Both the position numbers and the translations under genes were made by a program. From positions 1-47,873 of IMG/VR virus record IMGVR_UViG_3300037488_000956: a stretch of 47,873 nt of DNA; one strand, given 5' to 3'. The notes below the pieces were generated by a model. That model worked only from the letters and a program-made list of their open reading frames with translations, was not told the DNA's origin and made no database searches. Positions 1,471 to 47,873 of the stretch are shown here, piece after piece. Each line of letters begins with the position of its first letter. Position 1 is the first letter of the stretch. The DNA comes from a virus.

Positions 1471-2280
1471 ATGATTGCCGACCTGTTTCTGAGAACGTAC
1501 CCCGCCGACTACAAGTGGCTGCCATTTCTGTTTCGGTCACTATTGAAGCACGCCCGGTGTTGGCGTGACCTGATTATCACACTGCCCCGCCCAAGTGACG
1601 CCATTATCGGTGCGTCGGGTGGTTCCGAGGTTTCGTGGCTTGGTCAACTAGCGGCACTTGACACAGCCTTGGGAGTTCCCTTCAAGACCTGGGCCGAACG
1701 GTTCCGCGAGAAAGGCGTAATCACCGGCAAGATTCACGTCTTTCAGTGTGATACGCACTACCCAGACGACTACCTCGGTCAGTGTATTACGAAACTTCGC
1801 GCGTGGGAGTACACTGACGCAGATGAGGTAGCATTTCTTGATTCGGACAACGTCCTCCTTCGTGAGTGGAATCCGTGCACCCTGCGAGGATTTGAGACTA
1901 AGCCTCTCATTGAGGTGCGTGATTGGAACGACTCGGGCCAGGCAAAAGTGGCTTGGTTCGACATCACCGAGCACCTCCTAGGTGATGTTCCGCCGTACGA
2001 GACGATGTGCCGCCACCCGTTCCAATACCCAGTCCAATTCTTACGACGGGCATATGCACTCGCGGCCACGAAGTTGGTAGGGGTGATGAAAGCCGGCCGT
2101 AAGATCAGTGAGTTCAATTACCTGGGCAACTACGCCGTACTTCATGAACCGGATAGTTTCGTCTTCCGAGCACCCCAGAGCCAAGGCCCTGACGTAGTAA
2201 AGCAATTCTGGTCCTACGGTGGTCTCAACTTTGAAGTCGAAGACGAACTTCGCCGCCTAGGTCTTTGGGAGGAGTCATGA
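1471..2280 (+). CDS. Glycosyltransferase-like protein (DUF6492-like)
   Basis: This 269-residue protein opens with a hydrophobic beta strand (IADLFLRTYPADY). It carries a clear DxD motif in AFLDSDNVLL at about residues 119-128, as in nucleotide-sugar-dependent GT-A enzymes, where the aspartates bind Mn/Mg and the sugar nucleotide. The start follows a strong AAGGAG. It follows the first glycosyltransferase-like gene by 13 bases and overlaps the FkbM gene as ATGA, so all three are probably co-translated. The acceptor is unknown. The gene neighbourhood points to a modified deoxycytidine in DNA, but this is inference. Confidence 0.65.
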   Translation: MIADLFLRTYPADYKWLPFLFRSLLKHARCWRDLIITLPRPSDAIIGASGGSEVSWLGQLAALDTALGVPFKTWAERFREKGVITGKIHVFQCDTHYPDDYLGQCITKLRAWEYTDADEVAFLDSDNVLLREWNPCTLRGFETKPLIEVRDWNDSGQAKVAWFDITEHLLGDVPPYETMCRHPFQYPVQFLRRAYALAATKLVGVMKAGRKISEFNYLGNYAVLHEPDSFVFRAPQSQGPDVVKQFWSYGGLNFEVEDELRRLGLWEES

Positions 2281-3008
2281 TACCCGTGCGGGTGGTGCGT
2301 GGGTTCATACCGGGGCACCCTGGAATATATGACATCTACACACTATCAGGTGATACGCACATCGGTAAGTGGGTGGCTGAGTCACAACGCCTCGACCATG
2401 ACCAGGCGGCCCTACCACGGATAGCAGCCTTGATCAAGCCTGACGACGTCATCTACGACGTAGGGGCTTACATCGGTGACCACACAGCCTACTATGCTTC
2501 TTGCGTACCCTTTGGGGCAGGGCAGGTGTTTGCCTTCGAACCCCAACCAGACGCATTCGTGTGCCTTGAACACAACACCCGCGTCTATTCCAACGTGCGT
2601 TGTTATAACGTAGCTCTGGGTGACGGTGGGTGTGCTCGCGTAAGCCAGGAGACGGTGGGAAACCTCGGGGCTCGTGCATTGCGAGATGGCCTATGTGAAG
2701 GTGCTGAGCACACCATCAGGCTAGACAATGTCGTAAGTACTCTCGGTTGGCCGAACCTCATCAAGGTGGACGTCGAAGGGTGGGAGTGCCGAGTGCTTGA
2801 GGGCGGCGTCAAAACCCTCTCCAGTACCAACCGGCCAACGCTGGTGCTGGAGGTGAATGCCGGAGCTCTGGGCAAGGCGGGTACCAGTGCGGAGACCATG
2901 TACGAATTCCTACGCGGTTACGGGTACCAGGACCTCCGTGACCTGTTCACGGGAGAGGTGTGGAACCCCTTAGACGCGCGGCCCCAGTTTGACGTGGTGT
3001 GTAAATAA
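2277..3008 (+). CDS. FkbM-family SAM-dependent methyltransferase
   Basis: This 243-residue protein has the FkbM hallmarks in order: D-V-G-A-Y-I-G-D-H-T at 61-70 (SAM-binding motif I), F-E-P at 87-89 and I-K-V-D-V-E-G-W-E (motif IV region). FkbM enzymes typically O-methylate sugar or polyketide hydroxyls. The ATG at 2277 is preferred over an upstream in-frame start because GGAGG lies just upstream and the ATG overlaps the previous stop. As the last gene of the modification cassette and of the whole plus-strand arm, it could methylate the sugar added by the upstream glycosyltransferases. The substrate is inferred. Confidence 0.85.
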   Translation: MIPVRVVRGFIPGHPGIYDIYTLSGDTHIGKWVAESQRLDHDQAALPRIAALIKPDDVIYDVGAYIGDHTAYYASCVPFGAGQVFAFEPQPDAFVCLEHNTRVYSNVRCYNVALGDGGCARVSQETVGNLGARALRDGLCEGAEHTIRLDNVVSTLGWPNLIKVDVEGWECRVLEGGVKTLSSTNRPTLVLEVNAGALGKAGTSAETMYEFLRGYGYQDLRDLFTGEVWNPLDARPQFDVVCK

Positions 3009-3027
3009 CGTAACCCGCCACCGAATA

Positions 3028-3139
3028 AGCTCATCTCAGAGGCCCGCAGTTGTCCGGCATGGAAACCCCCATAGACCCCAAGGAACTCCGTTCTGGCTTT
3101 ACGGCGTCTCCACGGCGGGGGTTTCTAGCCCAAAGCCTA
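3028..3139 (+). repeat. 112-bp structured repeat element, copy 1 (possible pseudoknot RNA)
   Basis: This element is repeated at the same length and orientation at 11221-11332. Conserved blocks include AGAGGCCCGCA near the left end and a long right block ending in CTAGCCCAAAGCCTA. GAAACCCCC at 3062-3070 can pair with GGGGGTTTC at 3117-3125. GGCTTT at 3095-3100 can pair with AAAGCC at 3132-3137, and the two helices cross in pseudoknot order. CCGT/ACGG at 3088-3091 and 3101-3104 closes a loop holding GGCTTT. It lies between the end of the plus arm and the convergent lysis genes. Its function is unknown. Confidence 0.7.
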
Positions 3140-3146
3140 CGATTGG

Positions 3147-3416
3147 ATGTGCAACATGGTAGAGATTTTTGACCTCATCTACGCCTGGGCGGTGGCCGAG
3201 TTGGGCCTATCCCGGGCGTGGACTATCACCTGGCCCTACTTGGAACGCCTATCGCAGACCTCACCAGAGACTGCCGCCTGGGGTGCTCTGAAGCAGGTGG
3301 GGTTACCTAAGCACGCGGCTCACCTGAAAGCCTTGGTGCGAACAGTGGAGACCATCCCGGGTGACTTGACCTTTCATTTAGACTTACGCGCCACGCGAAA
3401 GGTGCTACGACCATGA
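3147..3416 (+). CDS. Hypothetical protein, 89 residues
   Basis: This small plus-strand frame lies in the convergent region between the FkbM gene and the endolysin. The protein is mostly helical in appearance, with Trp and Leu residues (AWTITWPYLERL) and a basic C-terminus, and resembles nothing I recognise. There is no strong ribosome binding site before the ATG at 3147 or the second ATG at 3156. The frame could be a minor terminal gene of the plus arm or chance. Bases 3417-3482 after it show nothing notable. Confidence 0.4.
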   Translation: MCNMVEIFDLIYAWAVAELGLSRAWTITWPYLERLSQTSPETAAWGALKQVGLPKHAAHLKALVRTVETIPGDLTFHLDLRATRKVLRP

Positions 3417-3482
3417 AGCCCACCATCTGCCTGTGCATTCGTCCTTAACTACCACTACAGTGCTACCAAGGCGCGTGAAGTA

Positions 3483-4085
3483 TCAGGTACAAAGCCCCTG
3501 AATAAGCTCTAGGTACTGGTCCCACGGCCACCGCGGGCCAGGGTCGACGTGAGTTCCTGAACCGGGGTAGGCCCGAGTGGCGTCAAGGTGACCGCAGATG
3601 CCCCGTTCTGACTTCAGCAGGTCGGCGGGCCCTAGGCGTACCACGGGAATCTGCCAGGCCCGACAGAGTTCAGCTACCAACCGCGCCGACCGTTGGAGGA
3701 CCGACTGGGCGGGTTCGCTAGCCCAGTCCGTGGCAACCGCAATGTGGTGACCGTCCTTGTCATGCTGGTCCAATGCATACCCGGCGTGTTCGATACCGAT
3801 GCCGCGGGCGTTGGCCTTAGGGCAGTGCCAGGCTACATCAGCCTCTCGAACGTATTGGAAGACTTCCGCGGGGTCTACCCCAAAGTGGGCCGACTTGGGT
3901 GCGCGTCGGGGTTTCTTGGTAGTGGGGTCGACGGTAACGTCAAGGTTGCGAAAAACCTCCCCCAGGCGCCGGGCCATGCCGGGTCGGCAGGGGAGTTCCA
4001 TTGTGTGGATGACGATGAGGTCAACTCGTTCACGGTTGGCATGATGGAAACACCGTGCCTGGATGAAGTTTGGTGTGGCACTCAT
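3483..4085 (-). CDS. N-acetylmuramoyl-L-alanine amidase endolysin (Amidase_2)
   Basis: This 200-residue single-domain protein cuts the amide bond between N-acetylmuramate and the stem peptide at lysis. The first zinc ligand is the His in V-I-H-T-M (about residue 27). The second is in G-H-L-D (about 166) and the third is the Asp in H-V-D-P-G-P (about 181). The spacing between the last two is about five residues longer than in AmpD. The start at 4085 overlaps the stop of the upstream membrane-protein gene as ATGA. The longer frame to 4232 overlaps that gene and has no homology. There is no signal peptide, so export would depend on a holin. Confidence 0.85.
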   Translation of the reverse strand: MSATPNFIQARCFHHANRERVDLIVIHTMELPCRPGMARRLGEVFRNLDVTVDPTTKKPRRAPKSAHFGVDPAEVFQYVREADVAWHCPKANARGIGIEHAGYALDQHDKDGHHIAVATDWASEPAQSVLQRSARLVAELCRAWQIPVVRLGPADLLKSERGICGHLDATRAYPGSGTHVDPGPRWPWDQYLELIQGLCT

Positions 4086-5904: not shown

Positions 5905-7569
5905 CTACGTCGGCGTGAAGTGCATCGCCATGAACAGATTGAGTATCGCGTTGATCTTCGCGTTATTCCCGCTCTGGGGTACGAAGACGATGCCCACAGC
6001 GTCTCCTTGTGTAACGCTGTAGGTGAGTCCTGTGACAGTCACTGTCTGCCAGATGTTGCCGCTCGACGTTGTGTTGTTTACGCCGACCTTAGCATCGTTG
6101 AGGCTAACGTTGGTCGAGCCCTGAGACGTTTCGGAGTTGTACCCCGCCTTGTAGACGTCGACTCGCATGTACGATCCGGACACTGGCCCACCTTGGGATA
6201 TGGCAGCGCCTTCCATCGTCAGGGTGAAACCCGTAATTGTGCCCGCAACGGGTGCAATCCACGGGAAGATCGTCTTGGCGTTCTGCATCCCGTTGGTCGC
6301 GTAGCTGGGCAACCCGCTCCTGCTGGTATTGTCGTTGCCAAAGACAAATCCCACGGGATTGCCGCCAGAAATCGAATCCGGTATGCCGCATTGGTAGTAA
6401 AGCGTCGCCGGCCCCTGCGCTCCCGTCGCCCCCTTGTCGCCGGCCCGGGTGAACGAAAGCGTGATCGAGTCCCCATTTGAAAACGGCGACGCGGCCGAGT
6501 ATCCCACGCACGCTACAGTGATATTCTTGTAGCCCGACGGCGACGCAATGGCGCTCACCGAGAAAAGCAGCCACTTGGTGGTGTCGCTCGTCTTAAAAAG
6601 GCGAATGTGCGCTTTGATCGTGTTGGTCGAGTCAGCGAAGGTGGCCAGCACCGCCGTCCAGTCCGTTGCGCCGCTGTCCTTCAGATCGGCGCGAATCGTC
6701 GTTGCAAGGTTCTGCGTCGCATTGTCCAGGCGCAGGTTTCCGTCCCCCGGGTCGCTGTCCGTGGTCGTGGTCGAAAACGTGTAGCCGATGGAGATAGCAC
6801 CGCCGACGGCGCCGGCTGCGCCAGTCGCACCCTTGATATTGCAAACAACAGCCCACGTGCCTGTCGTGTTCTTGTACACATCGTACGTGTCTGTCTTGAG
6901 GTAGAAGTCCCCACTGTTTCCACCTGTGGGCACCCCCGTGCCAGACGACCATGTAGCGCCGTCCGATCCCGGTACCCCCTTGATGTTGCAGACCACTGAC
7001 CAAGTCCCGCCAACGCGTTTGTAGACGTCCTGGGTGTCTGTCTTCAGGTGGAAATCGCCATCAGTGCCGCCCGATGGGACCGACGTGCTTGAAGACCATG
7101 TGGCACCGTTCGTACCTGGCGGCCCCGTAGGCCCTGGCCACAGCTTCGACCACGCCGTGGCGGTGAGGTCATTCTTCACCCAAATGGCGAGCGGTAGCGC
7201 AGGCGTTTCGATGTCGTCTTGCCAGACGATGGTGTGGACGGGTCGATCAAGGCCGGGCGACTCACTCGGATCGACCGTGACGTGTTCCCAGAGGCCAGAT
7301 AGCGAGCGAATATCGAGTTGCGGAACCCCGTCATCATCGTCCACCGTCCCAAAGGTCACGGACCCGTCGGACGACACGGGCCCAATGTGCTTCAAAAGCG
7401 CTTTCCACTGCGCAGTGGTGATCGCATCGGCCAGCGGGATGACTTGGCTAAGCGGGAGGACGGGAGGATTGGGCGGTACGAGGCCGGCGAGGAATGCGGC
7501 CTTTGCCGCCTCCTTTGCTTCGTCCGCTTCGGTGAAGAGCGCGGTGTATGTGTTCTTCCACACGGCCAT
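5905..7569 (-). CDS. Tail fibre protein with tandem domain and collagen-like turns
   Basis: This 554-residue protein carries two tandem copies of a 49-residue unit, at about 155-203 and 204-252. Each begins GATWSS, contains D-V-Y-K and G-T-W-x-V-V-C-N-I-K-G, and is joined by short Gly-Pro-rich collagen-like linkers (GPTGPPG). A further G-x-y stretch (GDKGATGAQGPA) precedes a beta-rich C-terminal domain likely to bind the host. The repeat unit is common in phage fibres. Base composition looks more GC- and CpG-rich than in the flanking fibre genes, which hints at separate acquisition. It probably attaches to the baseplate through the N-terminal region. Confidence 0.7.
   Translation of the reverse strand: MAVWKNTYTALFTEADEAKEAAKAAFLAGLVPPNPPVLPLSQVIPLADAITTAQWKALLKHIGPVSSDGSVTFGTVDDDDGVPQLDIRSLSGLWEHVTVDPSESPGLDRPVHTIVWQDDIETPALPLAIWVKNDLTATAWSKLWPGPTGPPGTNGATWSSSTSVPSGGTDGDFHLKTDTQDVYKRVGGTWSVVCNIKGVPGSDGATWSSGTGVPTGGNSGDFYLKTDTYDVYKNTTGTWAVVCNIKGATGAAGAVGGAISIGYTFSTTTTDSDPGDGNLRLDNATQNLATTIRADLKDSGATDWTAVLATFADSTNTIKAHIRLFKTSDTTKWLLFSVSAIASPSGYKNITVACVGYSAASPFSNGDSITLSFTRAGDKGATGAQGPATLYYQCGIPDSISGGNPVGFVFGNDNTSRSGLPSYATNGMQNAKTIFPWIAPVAGTITGFTLTMEGAAISQGGPVSGSYMRVDVYKAGYNSETSQGSTNVSLNDAKVGVNNTTSSGNIWQTVTVTGLTYSVTQGDAVGIVFVPQSGNNAKINAILNLFMAMHFTPT
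6814..7107 (-). repeat. Two tandem 147-bp coding repeats in the tail fibre gene
   Basis: The two units lie at about 6961-7107 and 6814-6960 and encode the 49-residue GATWSS domains. They are clearly related at protein level and also share long stretches of DNA. This kind of repeat could expand or contract by recombination. Confidence 0.7.
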
Positions 7570-10571: not shown

Positions 10572-11215
10572 GGCTTTACCATTATAGTCTGTGAGGCCGC
10601 ACCAAGGGCTCCGTAGGTCATCTTCGAGTAGGTGTCGATACCACGTGCCATGACGGTGCCGTTGATGAGTGGTAGGAAGGTGGAGACTGAAGCCTGGGTG
10701 CCGATATGCGTTGTACCGTCCTTCCGCACACTGATACGATTGCCACCTGCACGGGTCCTCACCTCCGTGGCCGAGTCGTGCATGTCCACTAGTGCATTGG
10801 GTTTAGCGCTGAACCCCACGTAGGCGAAGGAGTCTGACAAGTCGAATTGCCTCAACTCGGTGGGGTCTTGCACCCCGCCCTTAGCCCACCAACCATCGAT
10901 GGCGCGTTCGGCAATGGCCAACACCACGTCCATGCCGGGATAGACCTCGAAGGTCAAGACCCCACCCGGGAAGAAACACGGTACGCTGAGACACAATGGC
11001 AGTTGGACCAGCTTACCGTCGGGCAATAATAGGCGTCGCACGGCCGGTTGTACCTCCGCCGTCTGGTCCGTCTTGTTGAAGCTCTGCAATATACCTGGGG
11101 TGCAGGTATGATGGTCCATGAGGATACCCACCACCAATTGCTCATCGGCGTCCTCTGGGTGTCCTGCCAACTGCTGGGTGTCCAGTAGGAGCTTATTAAC
11201 GCGGGCTCCCGTTTC
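10568..11215 (-). CDS. Baseplate spike or central puncturing protein (Gp138-like)
   Basis: This 215-residue protein has the Gp138 N-terminal pattern: T-P-G-I-L-Q-S-F, then A-E-V-Q-P-A-V-R-R and an OB-fold-like region with P-C-F-F-P-G-G. It has a short C-terminal Gly/Thr region in place of a long beta-helical needle. I place the start at 11215 because GGGAGGAG lies just upstream; the frame to 11242 would include this site. The upstream untranslated region contains copy 2 of the 112-bp structured element, so expression of the spike may be linked to that element. Confidence 0.75.
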   Translation of the reverse strand, partial: ETGARVNKLLLDTQQLAGHPEDADEQLVVGILMDHHTCTPGILQSFNKTDQTAEVQPAVRRLLLPDGKLVQLPLCLSVPCFFPGGVLTFEVYPGMDVVLAIAERAIDGWWAKGGVQDPTELRQFDLSDSFAYVGFSAKPNALVDMHDSATEVRTRAGGNRISVRKDGTTHIGTQASVSTFLPLINGTVMARGIDTYSKMTYGALGAASQTIMVKP

Positions 11216-11220
11216 CATTA

Positions 11221-11332
11221 AGCTCCTCCCAGAGGCCCGCAATTGGCAGGGGTAGAAACTCCCATGGGCCGTCGTGTTCGTTCAACTGGCTTTACGGCGT
11301 CTCCGCGGCGGGGGTTTCTAGCCCAAAGCCTA
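11221..11332 (+). repeat. 112-bp structured repeat element, copy 2 (possible pseudoknot RNA)
   Basis: This second copy has the same length as 3028-3139 and the same pairing scheme. GAAACTCCC at 11255-11263 pairs with GGGGGTTTC at 11310-11314 and 11315-11318, and GGCTTT at 11288-11293 pairs with AAAGCC at 11325-11330. The C-to-T change in the first helix keeps a U.G pair only if the plus strand is transcribed. On the minus strand the element would be the 5' leader of the spike gene, with its edge forming the ribosome binding site. It fills much of the 175-bp gap between the hub and spike genes; bases 11333-11390 show nothing clear. Confidence 0.7.
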
Positions 11333-11390
11333 ACCGTAACCCCTAGAAACCAGACAATCTTCCATATTGCGTTAATAACACATCTTGACA

Positions 11391-12338
11391 TTAGGTGCCT
11401 CTCCGGGGGGTGGCTTGACCGATACCTACCGTCTCAGCCTCGGTGTACCAGTCTGGGCCACGGGTGTCGCCTTGGTGGCGCAACTTGTAGACCTTGTACC
11501 GGCCATCAGGGTCTAGTCGCACCAACTTCTTCTCCTTCACCTTAGGCCCACTGGCATACTGCTGGATGGCTTGGACCTTGATGTTGTTGTTATCCAAGAC
11601 CAGAACACCGTTAGTGAGCAACCACGGTTGGAGCTCCATCCGCACCTTGATACCCTTCCCTGAGACCTCGGGAGCGCCTAACATACCCGTCTGACCGTTG
11701 ACTACCACCGCCACCCCCGGCAATACCGAGTCGGCCTTCACGATGTTGAGAGTACCATTGGTAATAGACCACGCGGCAGCATTATCCCGCGCGATCTGGT
11801 CCAAGACGCGCCTCACCGGGCCCGCCAGAACCTTCCCCCGAAGGTATGTCGTCGGGGATAGTTCCACGTACCCAAGACGAATCTCATTCGTAATCTTGTT
11901 CACCTCTTCAAGGACAGCTTTGACTGCGTCCAACGGCGTTTGGCCGGCCTTCAAGGCCACGTAGATATGTGCTTCAGTGTAAGCCTTGTCACCGTCGGCT
12001 GCCTGAATTTCTGTAATCCAATCGGTGCCGTCACGATAGTGAGTAGGAAACCTGATGCCTCCACGAAAGATGATTCGAGTGTTGCCTCGATACCCGCAAT
12101 CGAGAACCACCTCGTCAAACTCCTTTTTGACCTTCCCCTCATTGGTCGGATTCAAATTGTAGATTTGGATGTTCGCAGTGTTGGGCGGACCCCGCAAGGT
12201 TTGCTCCACGGTAAACACCACCCGAAACCCCTCTAAGAGGATGCCCGAAGCTAGGTTTTGCGTGAGGTTCTTCCCCACGATAACCTTGCAAACCCGCCCA
12301 AAGTTGGCCGGATTTGCCGACTCAAGACTCGTACTCAC
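11391..12338 (-). CDS. Baseplate hub protein (gp27-like)
   Basis: This 315-residue protein has the features of simple-myovirus hub proteins: early beta strands with F-T-V-E-Q-T and N-I-Q-I-Y-N-L (about 40-65), a W-I-T-E-I-Q-A-A-D-G-D core, and a second lobe after residue 160. It starts with GTG overlapping the plug-gene stop as GTGA. It is expected to form the trimeric hub between tube and spike. The match is by pattern and by strict gene order after the plug protein. Confidence 0.7.
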   Translation of the reverse strand: MSTSLESANPANFGRVCKVIVGKNLTQNLASGILLEGFRVVFTVEQTLRGPPNTANIQIYNLNPTNEGKVKKEFDEVVLDCGYRGNTRIIFRGGIRFPTHYRDGTDWITEIQAADGDKAYTEAHIYVALKAGQTPLDAVKAVLEEVNKITNEIRLGYVELSPTTYLRGKVLAGPVRRVLDQIARDNAAAWSITNGTLNIVKADSVLPGVAVVVNGQTGMLGAPEVSGKGIKVRMELQPWLLTNGVLVLDNNNIKVQAIQQYASGPKVKEKKLVRLDPDGRYKVYKLRHQGDTRGPDWYTEAETVGIGQATPRRGT

Positions 12339-13259: not shown

Positions 13260-14930
13260 TTAGATACCCCTCGGCTGGTAGTCTCGAATCTGTTGCGACG
13301 AAAGCGCGTCCCGTACACTAGCGCCCGACGCCTTAGCGCGTTCGGGGGTGTCAGCCTTGACCTCGACTTTGGTGCCCGTGATGTAGGTGATACCACCCAC
13401 CGACTGGTTCAATGAACGCCTAGCGTCGACGTCCGCCAAGATACCCGCGATGCTGGCGGGGTTCAGCGCGCCAGGCCTCTTTGCTTCGATGTCAGCAAGA
13501 ATACCGGTAATATCCGCCGCCTTGGCCTTATTGGTGGCCTCACCATTTCGAATGACGTCTGCCATCGTCAGGACTGGACCCGCGGCAGAGGCCATGTTGC
13601 CGAACAACTGTTGCGCGGGATGCTGTCCGCTCTCAATCATTGCCTTCATCTTCATGTAGTCGGCGTAATCAGCCGACGGCGGCAATGGCGGGTTCGCCTG
13701 CATCTTCTTGTACCAGGCAATGGAGGTCTTAGGCGCCGCGTCCTCTTTGGCGATGATACCCAGAACACGGGCGGCCGCCACAATGTCCAACCAGACAGCC
13801 AAAAGACCCTCCATCGCTACCGAGATGACCTTGATAGCATTGGGCCACTTCTCATTGAGGTCTTTGAATACCGACTCCTCCCCTGCCTTCCACGCCATGA
13901 AGTCCTCGACCAGTAACCCGATACCCACCAGGATGAGGCCGATGATAGACAAGGCCTTTGGTGCCGCGGTGAAGGCCGTCCACATGTTGTTAACTGCCGT
14001 CGCCACCTTGTCGAAGATTTCACCCGCTTTCACGAAGGCGATGGTCACTAGCACTAACCGCAACGCCTCACCCGCCGTCCGGCTCTTCTCCATGGCCTGA
14101 TACAAGTGCGTAAGACTGCTGAAAAGACGCTCACCCCAACCCCAGACAACACCCAGGATTTGAGAGAGGAAGTGCATCGCCCCCTTAATCTTCTCAATGA
14201 TCTTGACCTTATTCTCCGTGAGGAACTTCTCAACCGAGTCAACTGCCTTACGAATCCACGGTGCCAGTTGATTTGCAAGAAGCGCGGATATTTGACTGGT
14301 TAGAATGTGAAATCGTTTGAAAGTCTTCTCGGTCTTGTCCGCCTGTTCGTAATCAGCATCAGTCAGAAGACCCTTCCCCATAGCCTCCTGAACTGCCTTG
14401 CGCCAACCTTCCCCGCCCATCTCCTTCATCGCCTTGGCGATCATGGGGTCGATACCCAAGCGGCTCGCCGTACCGATAACCTTGGACATGTCCATCTTCT
14501 GGAACTTGTCCGCGAGTTTCGTCATGGCATCGTCAACCCCATGAATCTGCTTGGGGTCGATGCCCAATGTACGGAACAGTTTAACATTGCGCCCGATGCC
14601 CATGGCCGCCTGCCCAGTCGCCCGGTAGACGCTCATAATTGCCGAACTCATAGACTCTAGACTGGCGCTATTCTCCGCCGCCACCCGGCCCAGGGCGTCG
14701 ATACGCGTGGCTGACATCTCAGTCACCTCAGCCAGGTCGTTCACAGCAGCTGCCGCACCAATTGACTTCTCGACGAATTCAACCGCCCGTTCAATGATCG
14801 CAATCGCGAAGATACCTTCTACCGCGTGCTTCAACCCCGTGAGTGAATTTTGGAACTCTTCGACGCCCCTATGATCGACCTTGAAGCCGAGCACGCCGAA
14901 GAACTTACCGATGATGCTTTCTTCACTCAT
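13260..14930 (-). CDS. Tail tape measure protein
   Basis: This 556-residue protein is mostly helical, with hydrophobic patches at about 38-50 and 305-370 and Ala/Gly-rich stretches near the C-terminus. It sets tail length and occupies the tube lumen. It follows the frameshifted tail chaperone and overlaps its stop as TAATG, the canonical arrangement. If tail length scales at about 0.15 nm per residue, this short tape measure implies a tail near 80-85 nm. Confidence 0.85.
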   Translation of the reverse strand: MSEESIIGKFFGVLGFKVDHRGVEEFQNSLTGLKHAVEGIFAIAIIERAVEFVEKSIGAAAAVNDLAEVTEMSATRIDALGRVAAENSASLESMSSAIMSVYRATGQAAMGIGRNVKLFRTLGIDPKQIHGVDDAMTKLADKFQKMDMSKVIGTASRLGIDPMIAKAMKEMGGEGWRKAVQEAMGKGLLTDADYEQADKTEKTFKRFHILTSQISALLANQLAPWIRKAVDSVEKFLTENKVKIIEKIKGAMHFLSQILGVVWGWGERLFSSLTHLYQAMEKSRTAGEALRLVLVTIAFVKAGEIFDKVATAVNNMWTAFTAAPKALSIIGLILVGIGLLVEDFMAWKAGEESVFKDLNEKWPNAIKVISVAMEGLLAVWLDIVAAARVLGIIAKEDAAPKTSIAWYKKMQANPPLPPSADYADYMKMKAMIESGQHPAQQLFGNMASAAGPVLTMADVIRNGEATNKAKAADITGILADIEAKRPGALNPASIAGILADVDARRSLNQSVGGITYITGTKVEVKADTPERAKASGASVRDALSSQQIRDYQPRGI

Positions 14931-15573
14931 TAGGGCCTCTTGTTTCGGTCACGATTCTCCTTTTCATACTCGGCCCGACGGCGGGCATTCTCTGCCAAGA
15001 CGTCGAGCAACTCATGCATGTCCAGAAGGTCGTCTATGGAATACGTGCCATCTTCTAAGAGGTAGAAGTCTCGGCAGAGAACGGGGTCGCTGACGCAGGG
15101 TCGCCAGAGGAAGAGGTCGATGTTGACTGTTTCGGCAAGATCGTAGCCCTCAGCTTTGCGAACAGACTCGAAGGCGAGAGGGCGCCGACGAAAAAATCGG
15201 CAAAGTTGACCTGCAACACTTTGATGAATACCTGCCAGAGCTCTCGGTTTCGGCCCACGAAATGGGTGTCGAGACCTTCCCCGCCGTCGTTCTCTTCGCA
15301 AATACGGATGATGACATCCTTAATGCCTACAAACCGAAAGGCGGTCTGCATCATCTTGAGAAGCTGGGCGTCGTCCAACCGTTCCGTGAAGAGCCCTACC
15401 GCCAAGGCCATCGCCCCCTCCGAACTGAGTTCGGCAGTAGAGAAGGCCTTGAACATTGGTTGCCCTAGCGTCTTCGCCAGGTAAACCTCCATCGGCACCG
15501 CAAGCCGTGGAGGCATCTGGCGAATCAGGTAGACGCGGTTACCACATTCGAATCGGTCCTCCTTGCAAGCCAT
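14930..15573 (-). CDS. Tail assembly chaperone, -1 frameshift product (gpGT-like)
   Basis: Translation that slips back one base at TTTTTTC (15196 to 15190) leaves the zero frame after N-F-A-D-F-F and continues R-R-R-P-L-A-F-E to a stop at 14930, giving 214 residues. The extension (about 86 residues) is acidic and helical (SIDDLLDMHELLDVLAEN) with a basic end, as expected of the T-domain. It ends at the tape measure start (TAATG). The shifted frame has no start of its own with a ribosome binding site. Confidence 0.8.
15055..15573 (-). CDS. Tail assembly chaperone, unshifted product (gpG-like)
   Basis: This 172-residue zero-frame product lies between the tail tube and tape measure genes. It has a conserved core (about 20-130) and then a Ser/Thr-rich tail of about 30 residues encoded after the slippery site, which reads like the dispensable end made when no frameshift occurs. 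It acts with the shifted product to recruit tube protein to the tape measure during assembly and is not expected in the virion. The ATG at 15573 follows GGGG. Confidence 0.8.
   Translation of the reverse strand: MACKEDRFECGNRVYLIRQMPPRLAVPMEVYLAKTLGQPMFKAFSTAELSSEGAMALAVGLFTERLDDAQLLKMMQTAFRFVGIKDVIIRICEENDGGEGLDTHFVGRNRELWQVFIKVLQVNFADFFVGALSPSSLFAKLRATILPKQSTSTSSSGDPASATPFSAETSTS
15146..15196 (-). promoter_or_regulatory. Programmed -1 ribosomal frameshift site
   Basis: The heptamer T-TTT-TTC occupies 15196 to 15190 in the zero frame (codons GAT TTT TTC). Six bases further on, GCCCTC at 15183-15178 can pair with GAGGGC at 15151-15146 across a 26-base loop. A slippery heptamer followed by a stem after 5-9 bases is the standard -1 frameshift arrangement. 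Confidence 0.8.
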
Positions 15574-35485: not shown

Positions 35486-35523
35486 ACCCAACCACCACGT
35501 TCAAGTCACCAAGGAGAATTCAC

Positions 35524-36057
35524 ATGTCCAAGTCCACCAAGTCCACCAAGTCCACCAAGTCCACCAAGTCCACCAAGTCCACCAAGGTTCGCACAATGAA
35601 AGATGTTGTCAAAGACCGTAAGGCCCAGGCCGAGAAGGTTGCGGTCACCCCAGTAGACGTCAAGAACTTTCCGCGCGTCGCCGGGCTCGGCGCCACCCCG
35701 AAGTTCTGCTCCCGCGCCGAAGCCATCGCCGACCGGGCTGCGCGCTTGGCCGAGAAGGAGGTTGTCGAGTCGGCTACCACCGGCGCCAAGACGATGGAGC
35801 TTCCGGCGGTTATCGAAGCCAAGGCTAAGGCACCGCGGGCCCGACGTGAGAACACCGTTTCCTGCCTGGCCGAGACCATGATTCAGGAGGGTGCCACCAA
35901 TGAGGAGGTGCTCGAGGCTCTGACCAAGACCTTCAGTGACTTCGACGCGGACAAGAAACGCCACTACCCTAGCTGGTACCGGGCAAGGCTCGTAAGGCAG
36001 GGTAAGATAACGGAAGCCTTTGCGGATGAGCACCGGCACGCACCGGAGGAGGTTTGA
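35524..36057 (+). CDS. Hypothetical protein with STK repeats and WYR C-terminal domain
   Basis: This 177-residue protein begins M-S-K followed by six S-T-K units, then a basic, disordered middle. A compact C-terminal domain of about 60 residues (E-T-M-I-Q-E-G-A-T-N-E-E-V, ending S-W-Y-R-A-R-L-V-R-Q-G) closely resembles the end of the protein at 44098-44811. The paralogy suggests a shared small DNA- or protein-binding domain. AAGGAG precedes the ATG. A GGTGCCACCAA motif lies within the gene at 35889-35899. Confidence 0.65.
   Translation: MSKSTKSTKSTKSTKSTKSTKVRTMKDVVKDRKAQAEKVAVTPVDVKNFPRVAGLGATPKFCSRAEAIADRAARLAEKEVVESATTGAKTMELPAVIEAKAKAPRARRENTVSCLAETMIQEGATNEEVLEALTKTFSDFDADKKRHYPSWYRARLVRQGKITEAFADEHRHAPEEV
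35533..35586 (+). repeat. Six tandem 9-bp repeats (TCCACCAAG)
   Basis: Six exact copies of TCCACCAAG encode the S-T-K units at the start of the protein. Exact identity at DNA level, rather than only at protein level, points to recent slippage and likely copy-number variation between related phages. Confidence 0.9.
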
Positions 36058-47172: not shown

Positions 47173-47873
47173 GACACGTCCTTGATTGCTACCAGCCCAA
47201 CAGCTTCGAACCCGTACCCACCGCCAACGAAGCGTGGTTAAGTCTACTGCGTAACCTAGTATTTCGTAGCGCGAAGGTCTCGCCCCGAGGCCTGGCGTCT
47301 TATGAAATACTTCACCACGTCTCTCTTTCCGTGGACTTGAATCATCCGGTGGTGACGTGTCCGAAACGTAAGTTGAACTACCGCTTCATGGCGGCGGAAG
47401 CCTTGTGGATTGCGGAGGGGCGGTGCGACTTAGCACCGCTGACGGCAGTCAACCCCAACATGGTCAACTTCAGTGACGACGGCTTGACTCTAGCCGGCGC
47501 CTATGGGCCGCGTCTTCGACCCCAGTTGCCCTATGTGGTGGAGACCCTCCTCCGTGACCGGGATACCCGTCAAGCGGCCATGACGATCTGGACACCAAAC
47601 CCGCGGCCCAGTAAGGACATCCCATGCACCATCGCCATGGTGTTCGCCATCCGGGAGAATCGCCTCTACCAGCAGGCCTTCATGCGCTCGAGTGACGTGT
47701 GGCTCGGGATACCCTATGACATCTTCTCATTCTCCCTCCTGGCCTACGAGGTAGCGTGTCTATACAACCAAGAGTCTTGCCCGGCGGCACCACCCATCGG
47801 ACTTGGGCACTTGACCATCACTTGCTCTTCGAGTCACCTCTATGAGAAGAACCAACCCGAGGCTTCAGAGTTG
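47169..47873 (+). CDS. Thymidylate synthase-like dCMP (hydroxy)methyltransferase, N-terminal part
   Basis: The joined gene (47169 to 47746, then 1 to 274) encodes about 283 residues of the thymidylate synthase fold. The family residues are present: Glu77, catalytic Cys153 (I-P-C-T), Arg173 and Asp176 (R-S-S-D-V-W-L-G). At the position of E. coli Asn177, which selects dUMP, this protein has Asp184 (G-I-P-Y-D-I-F). The same Asn-to-Asp change marks T4 dCMP hydroxymethylase. The usual folate-side Trp80 also appears to be lost. The likely product is 5-hydroxymethyl-dCMP or 5-methyl-dCMP; dTMP is the alternative. The ATG overlaps the kinase stop. Confidence 0.75.
   Translation, partial: MRHVLDCYQPNSFEPVPTANEAWLSLLRNLVFRSAKVSPRGLASYEILHHVSLSVDLNHPVVTCPKRKLNYRFMAAEALWIAEGRCDLAPLTAVNPNMVNFSDDGLTLAGAYGPRLRPQLPYVVETLLRDRDTRQAAMTIWTPNPRPSKDIPCTIAMVFAIRENRLYQQAFMRSSDVWLGIPYDIFSFSLLAYEVACLYNQESCPAAPPIGLGHLTITCSSSHLYEKNQPEASEL
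47747..47873. repeat. Terminal direct repeat, right copy (assembly closure)
   Basis: This is the exact second copy of bases 1-127. No mismatch was found in a base-by-base comparison. Any annotation in one copy should be counted once. Confidence 0.95.

Follow-up and report, generated by a model that had tools for sequence, protein, structure and literature searches.

One copy of a duplicated 112-bp element of a phage genome lies in an insertion between baseplate hub and spike genes and may control spike translation

The 112-bp repeat described here is, with a probability that we put at about one half, a lineage-specific duplicated DNA cassette of which the second copy now controls translation of a baseplate spike gene. 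The window, meaning the whole stretch of DNA that was analysed, is a 47.9-kb phage record (IMGVR_UViG_3300037488_000956). Its terminal repeats (1-127 and 47747-47873) are 127 bp long and identical, which suggests a complete genome that is circular or terminally redundant; no tRNA genes were detected in the window. A blastn comparison of the window with itself returned the 112-bp pair as the sole strong dispersed repeat besides the 127-bp terminal repeat and an internal repeat in a tail gene. The latter is a diverged tandem duplication at 6809-7126, with an offset of 147 bp, in the gene at 5905-7569. A tandem 9-bp repeat at 35519-35590 codes for a Lys-Ser-Thr repeat in the opening part of a plus-strand open reading frame. 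The related phage G004 has a tandem array (L051, 14750-15187) whose period is about 21 bp.

Copy 1 (3028-3139) and copy 2 (11221-11332) are both on the plus strand and align without gaps at 87 of 112 identical positions (blastn within the window, E 8.4e-23). This bears out the two equal-length copies described in an earlier note on this DNA, and also its observation that the middle 20 bases differ in sequence while keeping their length (6 of 20 identical). The differences are unevenly spread: the first 46 bases hold 10 of them, the following 20 hold 14, and the final 46 hold 1. The right block of copy 1 (3094-3139) is identical to 11287-11332 at 45 of 46 positions; a hypergeometric test for finding 1 of the 25 differences there gives P 5e-6, and a stretch this long with at most one difference occurred in 4 of 20000 permutations. 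Selection on DNA or RNA, or recent exchange between the copies, could possibly account for this. The cassette reading itself leaves the 98% identity of this block unexplained. The pattern could point to a DNA-level signal, such as a recombination, replication or packaging site that acts irrespective of gene orientation and has the 46-bp right block as its core. The copies have the same orientation in the genome but adjoin genes of opposite direction, as such a site would allow. However, the element is not conserved in relatives, and recent exchange could also have produced the block identity; we give a site of this kind a small chance. A recombination or mobility role at the DNA level is possible and would fit the insertion found at copy 2.

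Relatives of the phage were collected in several ways. A terminase search gave 10 viral loci with 71-84% identity in the best segment, a search with an alignment of the hub protein gave 26 loci (best 67%), and an alignment of a gene near copy 1 gave 4. Protein matches show that the related records G004 and G021 largely keep the gene order of the window. Neither blastn nor a covariance search found copies of the repeat in related records, and copy 1 had no blastn match among phages and plasmids. Exact-pattern scans with a 17-mer hit one locus among viral contigs, within a repressor-like frame, and 34 genome contigs, which is by estimate about the chance expectation. An 18-letter pattern hit 10 viral loci, nine of which represent one unrelated homologous stretch.

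Copy 1 lies between an FkbM-type methyltransferase gene (2277-3008, plus strand) and a small gene at 3147-3416. The proposal that copy 1 follows the plus arm is not quite correct: homologues of the next gene, 3147-3416, occur in two related records. In G004 the relative of this gene comes directly after a glycosyltransferase-like gene (our own label for a gene without a Pfam match), and in G021 it is preceded by another gene. The methyltransferase gene is not at this place in these two records and has no match in the sets of pieces available for G004 and G021; copy 1 therefore adjoins an accessory gene. The methyltransferase was considered as a companion of the repeat and rejected, as relatives of it at 20 viral loci occur without the repeat. 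In L116 a longer frame contains the methyltransferase relative, also without the repeat.

As proposed in the earlier note, copy 2 lies between baseplate genes on the minus arm, namely a hub-like gene (11391-12338, minus strand) upstream and a spike-like gene (PF18352; 10568-11218, minus strand, start ATG 11216-11218) downstream. It forms the major part of an inserted sequence of 168 bp (11221-11388), or 173 bp when one CATTA is included. The last 56 bp of the insertion (11333-11388) are AT-rich (GC 0.39) and missing from copy 1. Homology between the copies starts at 3026 and 11219, two bases from the left edge of the insertion. In the window about 170 bases separate the hub stop from the spike start. 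In relatives the spike start codon is found a few bases from the hub stop: hub and spike adjoin directly or overlap in 15 of 15 rows, representing 14 distinct records because L053 and L085 are one record, and a comparable gap occurs in none. This count excludes L087, which has no spike match, and the distant loci L098-L109; for rows in which the first spike residues were unaligned the start codon was taken from the junction sequence.

A literal TAATG joins hub and spike in L090 and L097, and the window has TAATG twice on the minus strand, at 11393-11389 and 11220-11216, 168 bp apart. Read from the sequence, the hub stop overlaps the ATG of a 57-codon open frame at the right CATTA (11389-11393), the end of that frame overlaps the spike start at the left CATTA (11216-11220), and the ends AGCTCCTCCC and CACATCTTGA lack the terminal inverted repeats expected of a MITE or insertion-sequence derivative. 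The duplicated CATTA may be a 5-bp target duplication or may represent the stop and start ends of an acquired gene. No duplicated flank was seen at copy 1, nor a transposase match or a second duplicated target. Among the papers listed for miniature elements with target duplications and phage, none deals with such a case to judge by its title. An integron attC-like site was considered and dropped, as the motif GCCTAAC is present at copy 2 and missing at copy 1. Derivation of the insertion from its own flanks was also discarded. The left part matched the inverted spike region at a level reached by 8 of 1000 shuffles and is better described as a hairpin, the match of the right part to the hub end was weak (46 of 1000), and the other two comparisons were reached by 671 and 908 of 1000 shuffles.

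A strong hairpin is predicted at the spike start. The late operon is encoded by the minus strand, on which the segment 11155-11255 has a predicted folding energy of -50.7 kcal/mol, whereas shuffled sequences average -31.5 (z -5.8, 0 of 200 shuffles). In a scan of the genome with 1912 windows and 30 shuffles each, this site had the lowest z (-6.9), and the plus strand was less extreme there (z -4.9). The 5' arm (11219-11250, 29 paired positions) lies within copy 2 and the 3' arm (11163-11195) consists of spike codons, whose pairing partner is the left block of that copy. The spike Shine-Dalgarno sequence GGAGG (11225-11229), six bases before the ATG, is in the 5' arm and thus lies inside a stable predicted helix, as expected of a hairpin that sequesters a start site. 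The pairing score of the left block of copy 2 with the spike gene's first 100 nt was reached by 0 of 5000 shuffles. At 9 loci of relatives the spike starts fold ordinarily (z -1.8 to 1.1), and no comparable fold is predicted around copy 1 (2850-3325, z -2.5 to 1.4).

The arm of copy 1, when paired with the spike arm, gives -37.6 kcal/mol against -52.3 for copy 2. Its score was reached by 7 of 5000 shuffles, which is not independent evidence since the copies are related. Four of the five differences between the copies at paired sites break the pair, a count that is partly circular because the sites were taken from the fold of copy 2. Reading the sequences side by side, copy 2 has the better Shine-Dalgarno sequence (GGGAGGAG, as compared to GAGATGAG in copy 1), and the residues encoded by the spike arm codons are similar in L095, so that the spike arm is probably the older of the two arms.

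The second most extreme predicted structure of the genome is at 15451-15551 (z -6.1, both strands), inside the minus-strand open reading frame 15055-15573. This frame overlaps another one, 14930-15301, and both lie on the minus strand (14930-15573) upstream of a tape-measure-like gene. They resemble a tail-assembly chaperone pair that may use a frameshift.

The 57-codon frame (11218-11391, minus strand) spans the insertion from TAATG to TAATG, and its status as a gene is uncertain. It could be a real minus-strand gene of 57 amino acids that was acquired and coupled to hub and spike, with copy 1 as the remnant of a related gene that has lost its start. The predicted product has a hydrophobic N-terminus and an arginine-rich middle. 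The exact fit of the frame between the two TAATG motifs and the Shine-Dalgarno-like GGAGAGG ahead of it would be consistent with such a gene, as would a hand count that places 7 of the 11 differences beyond the variable block on third codon positions, which the plus-strand frame shares. The third codon positions are common to the frames of both strands, so substitutions cannot distinguish between them. An open frame between two given TAATG motifs arose by chance in 260 of 5000 shuffles, and its presence is therefore not strong evidence for a gene. Moreover, the codon usage is atypical, scoring -0.224 per codon as compared to -0.017 and ranking under the 5th percentile for genes of this phage, and three protein family libraries gave no match. 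Searches of phage proteins returned no convincing homologue, with one weak match for the minus frame (E 0.1) and one for the plus frame (E 8), and the product was not found in viral contigs. Copy 1 has no start codon before the shared part in the minus frame. An acquired gene is unlikely, with a chance that is still appreciable.

Under the cassette reading the anatomy of copy 2 can be connected to regulated coupling of hub and spike by an inferred mechanism. The cassette would have entered a TAATG stop/start junction, duplicating the TAATG and keeping a 57-codon frame open between the two genes. On completing the hub gene, a ribosome could then restart at the first TAATG and translate the hairpin arm, thereby opening the hairpin, after which it would restart at the spike ATG in the second TAATG. 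Such coupling by RNA unfolding would let the spike be made only in step with the hub. Insertion would have required that the operon kept working, and the restart codon at the hub stop, the open frame, the new Shine-Dalgarno sequence and the overlapping start would all fit this. Copy 1, next to an accessory gene, would be a second and partial copy with no such translational role.

The earlier note had proposed that both copies share a conserved pseudoknot of two crossing helices. The first helix of copy 1 is indeed a perfect 9-bp inverted repeat, but copy 2 has no perfect 9-bp helix. Of 2000 dinucleotide shuffles of copy 1, a perfect 9-bp helix appeared in 47, and together with a crossing 6-bp helix in 13, in post hoc tests of a feature picked after inspection. 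The case for conservation is weak: with helix 1 counted as 11 pairs and the crossing helix as 6, 15 of 17 pairs are invariant and two vary on one side. The six crossing pairs are uninformative because they never vary. As noted earlier, the C-to-T change leaves a U.G pair on the plus strand only, and the second change in helix 1 (A-U/G.U) likewise pairs only on that strand. These changes, and two double changes between the copies in a small hairpin of the variable block, would be expected of a structured plus-strand RNA with the proposed pseudoknot, either a small RNA or a protein-binding site. However, the pair counts of the alignment were equalled by 128 of 500 column shuffles, a comparison that has little power with two sequences, and the elements alone have ordinary fold energies on both strands (z -0.1 to -1.0). 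No sigma-70-like promoter was found by either copy in 2800-3500 or 11000-11700, and one terminator-like site was found across these regions, outside copy 2.

Database and covariance searches did not change this. Rfam release 15 gave 0 matches above the gathering score in the window, and a permissive search gave one irrelevant match for copy 1 (E 0.74) and none for copy 2. A covariance model built from both copies, run against 50 sources with 525,647 bases, recovered only these copies with confidence; beyond them a single stretch present in two loci had E 0.099, and other matches had 0.9 to 3.5. This search omitted other loci, among them L042, L085, L095, L114 and L115, which are further pieces of the same records, as well as L098-L112 and the loci found by exact-pattern scans. 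In 10 whole records good scores were obtained only for the window's own copies, with one weak match at E 0.58. The covariance search that the earlier note had set as a check thus gave no support for conserved pairing in the relatives searched, and a conserved pseudoknot RNA family is not supported. A plus-strand structured RNA is very unlikely. Of the small RNA, regulatory leader or DNA signal suggested before, a regulatory role of copy 2 is plausible, but by a different structure and on the minus strand. A small RNA or leader common to both copies is difficult to defend: the copies have the same orientation next to genes of opposite direction, no sigma-70-like promoter was found near either, the one terminator-like site is outside copy 2, Rfam gave nothing credible, and the covariance search gave only weak further matches. 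Such an RNA would be sense to the neighbours of copy 1 and antisense at copy 2, a problem that a duplicated DNA cassette does not have.

What was claimed as an RNA family thus becomes a testable example of the way in which phages cope with insertions into structural operons whose genes are tightly coupled, where inserted DNA must pass the ribosome from gene to gene. If the hairpin works, spike output would be tied to hub translation, which would directly set the ratio of two baseplate proteins. A more far-reaching idea, which we consider distinctly improbable, is that the repeat represents a very short mobile phage element. It would enter stop/start junctions in operons, duplicate TAATG, keep a coupled frame open and bring a new Shine-Dalgarno sequence with an RNA arm complementary to part of the downstream gene; insertion in an essential operon would thereby be tolerated and yield a translation switch.

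Among known systems, the PeSL elements, reportedly described by Arbiol et al. in 2010, are said to be mobile regulatory cassettes of T4-type phages with an early promoter and a stem-loop. They are short repeated intergenic cassettes at sites where gene content varies, like the present repeat, whereas the regions 2800-3500 and 11000-11700 have no promoter-like site. A literature search gave no paper on intergenic repeats with pseudoknots in bacteriophage genomes, and we make no wider claim about what has been published. The leader of gene 32 in T4-type phages (PMC3014915) has an mRNA pseudoknot of the sort first proposed here, but in the present phage no conserved pseudoknot can be demonstrated and the gene context differs. 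Both hairpins that sequester phage start sites (PMC3014915) and translational coupling by RNA unfolding (PMC12548453) are established and already known in phages. In the T4 genes e, soc, 49 and I-TevI the Shine-Dalgarno sequence and start region are held in an RNA helix (PMC3014915), as predicted for the spike gene. The difference is that here, by prediction, the upstream arm lies in a lineage-specific insertion and the downstream arm consists of spike codons. For genes VII and IX of phage f1 (PMC12548453) the comparison is that in the present phage coupling is inferred and the upstream frame may be a mere leader frame, while in both cases the upstream frame runs through a start-blocking hairpin, here a predicted one, and ends in a stop that overlaps the next start.
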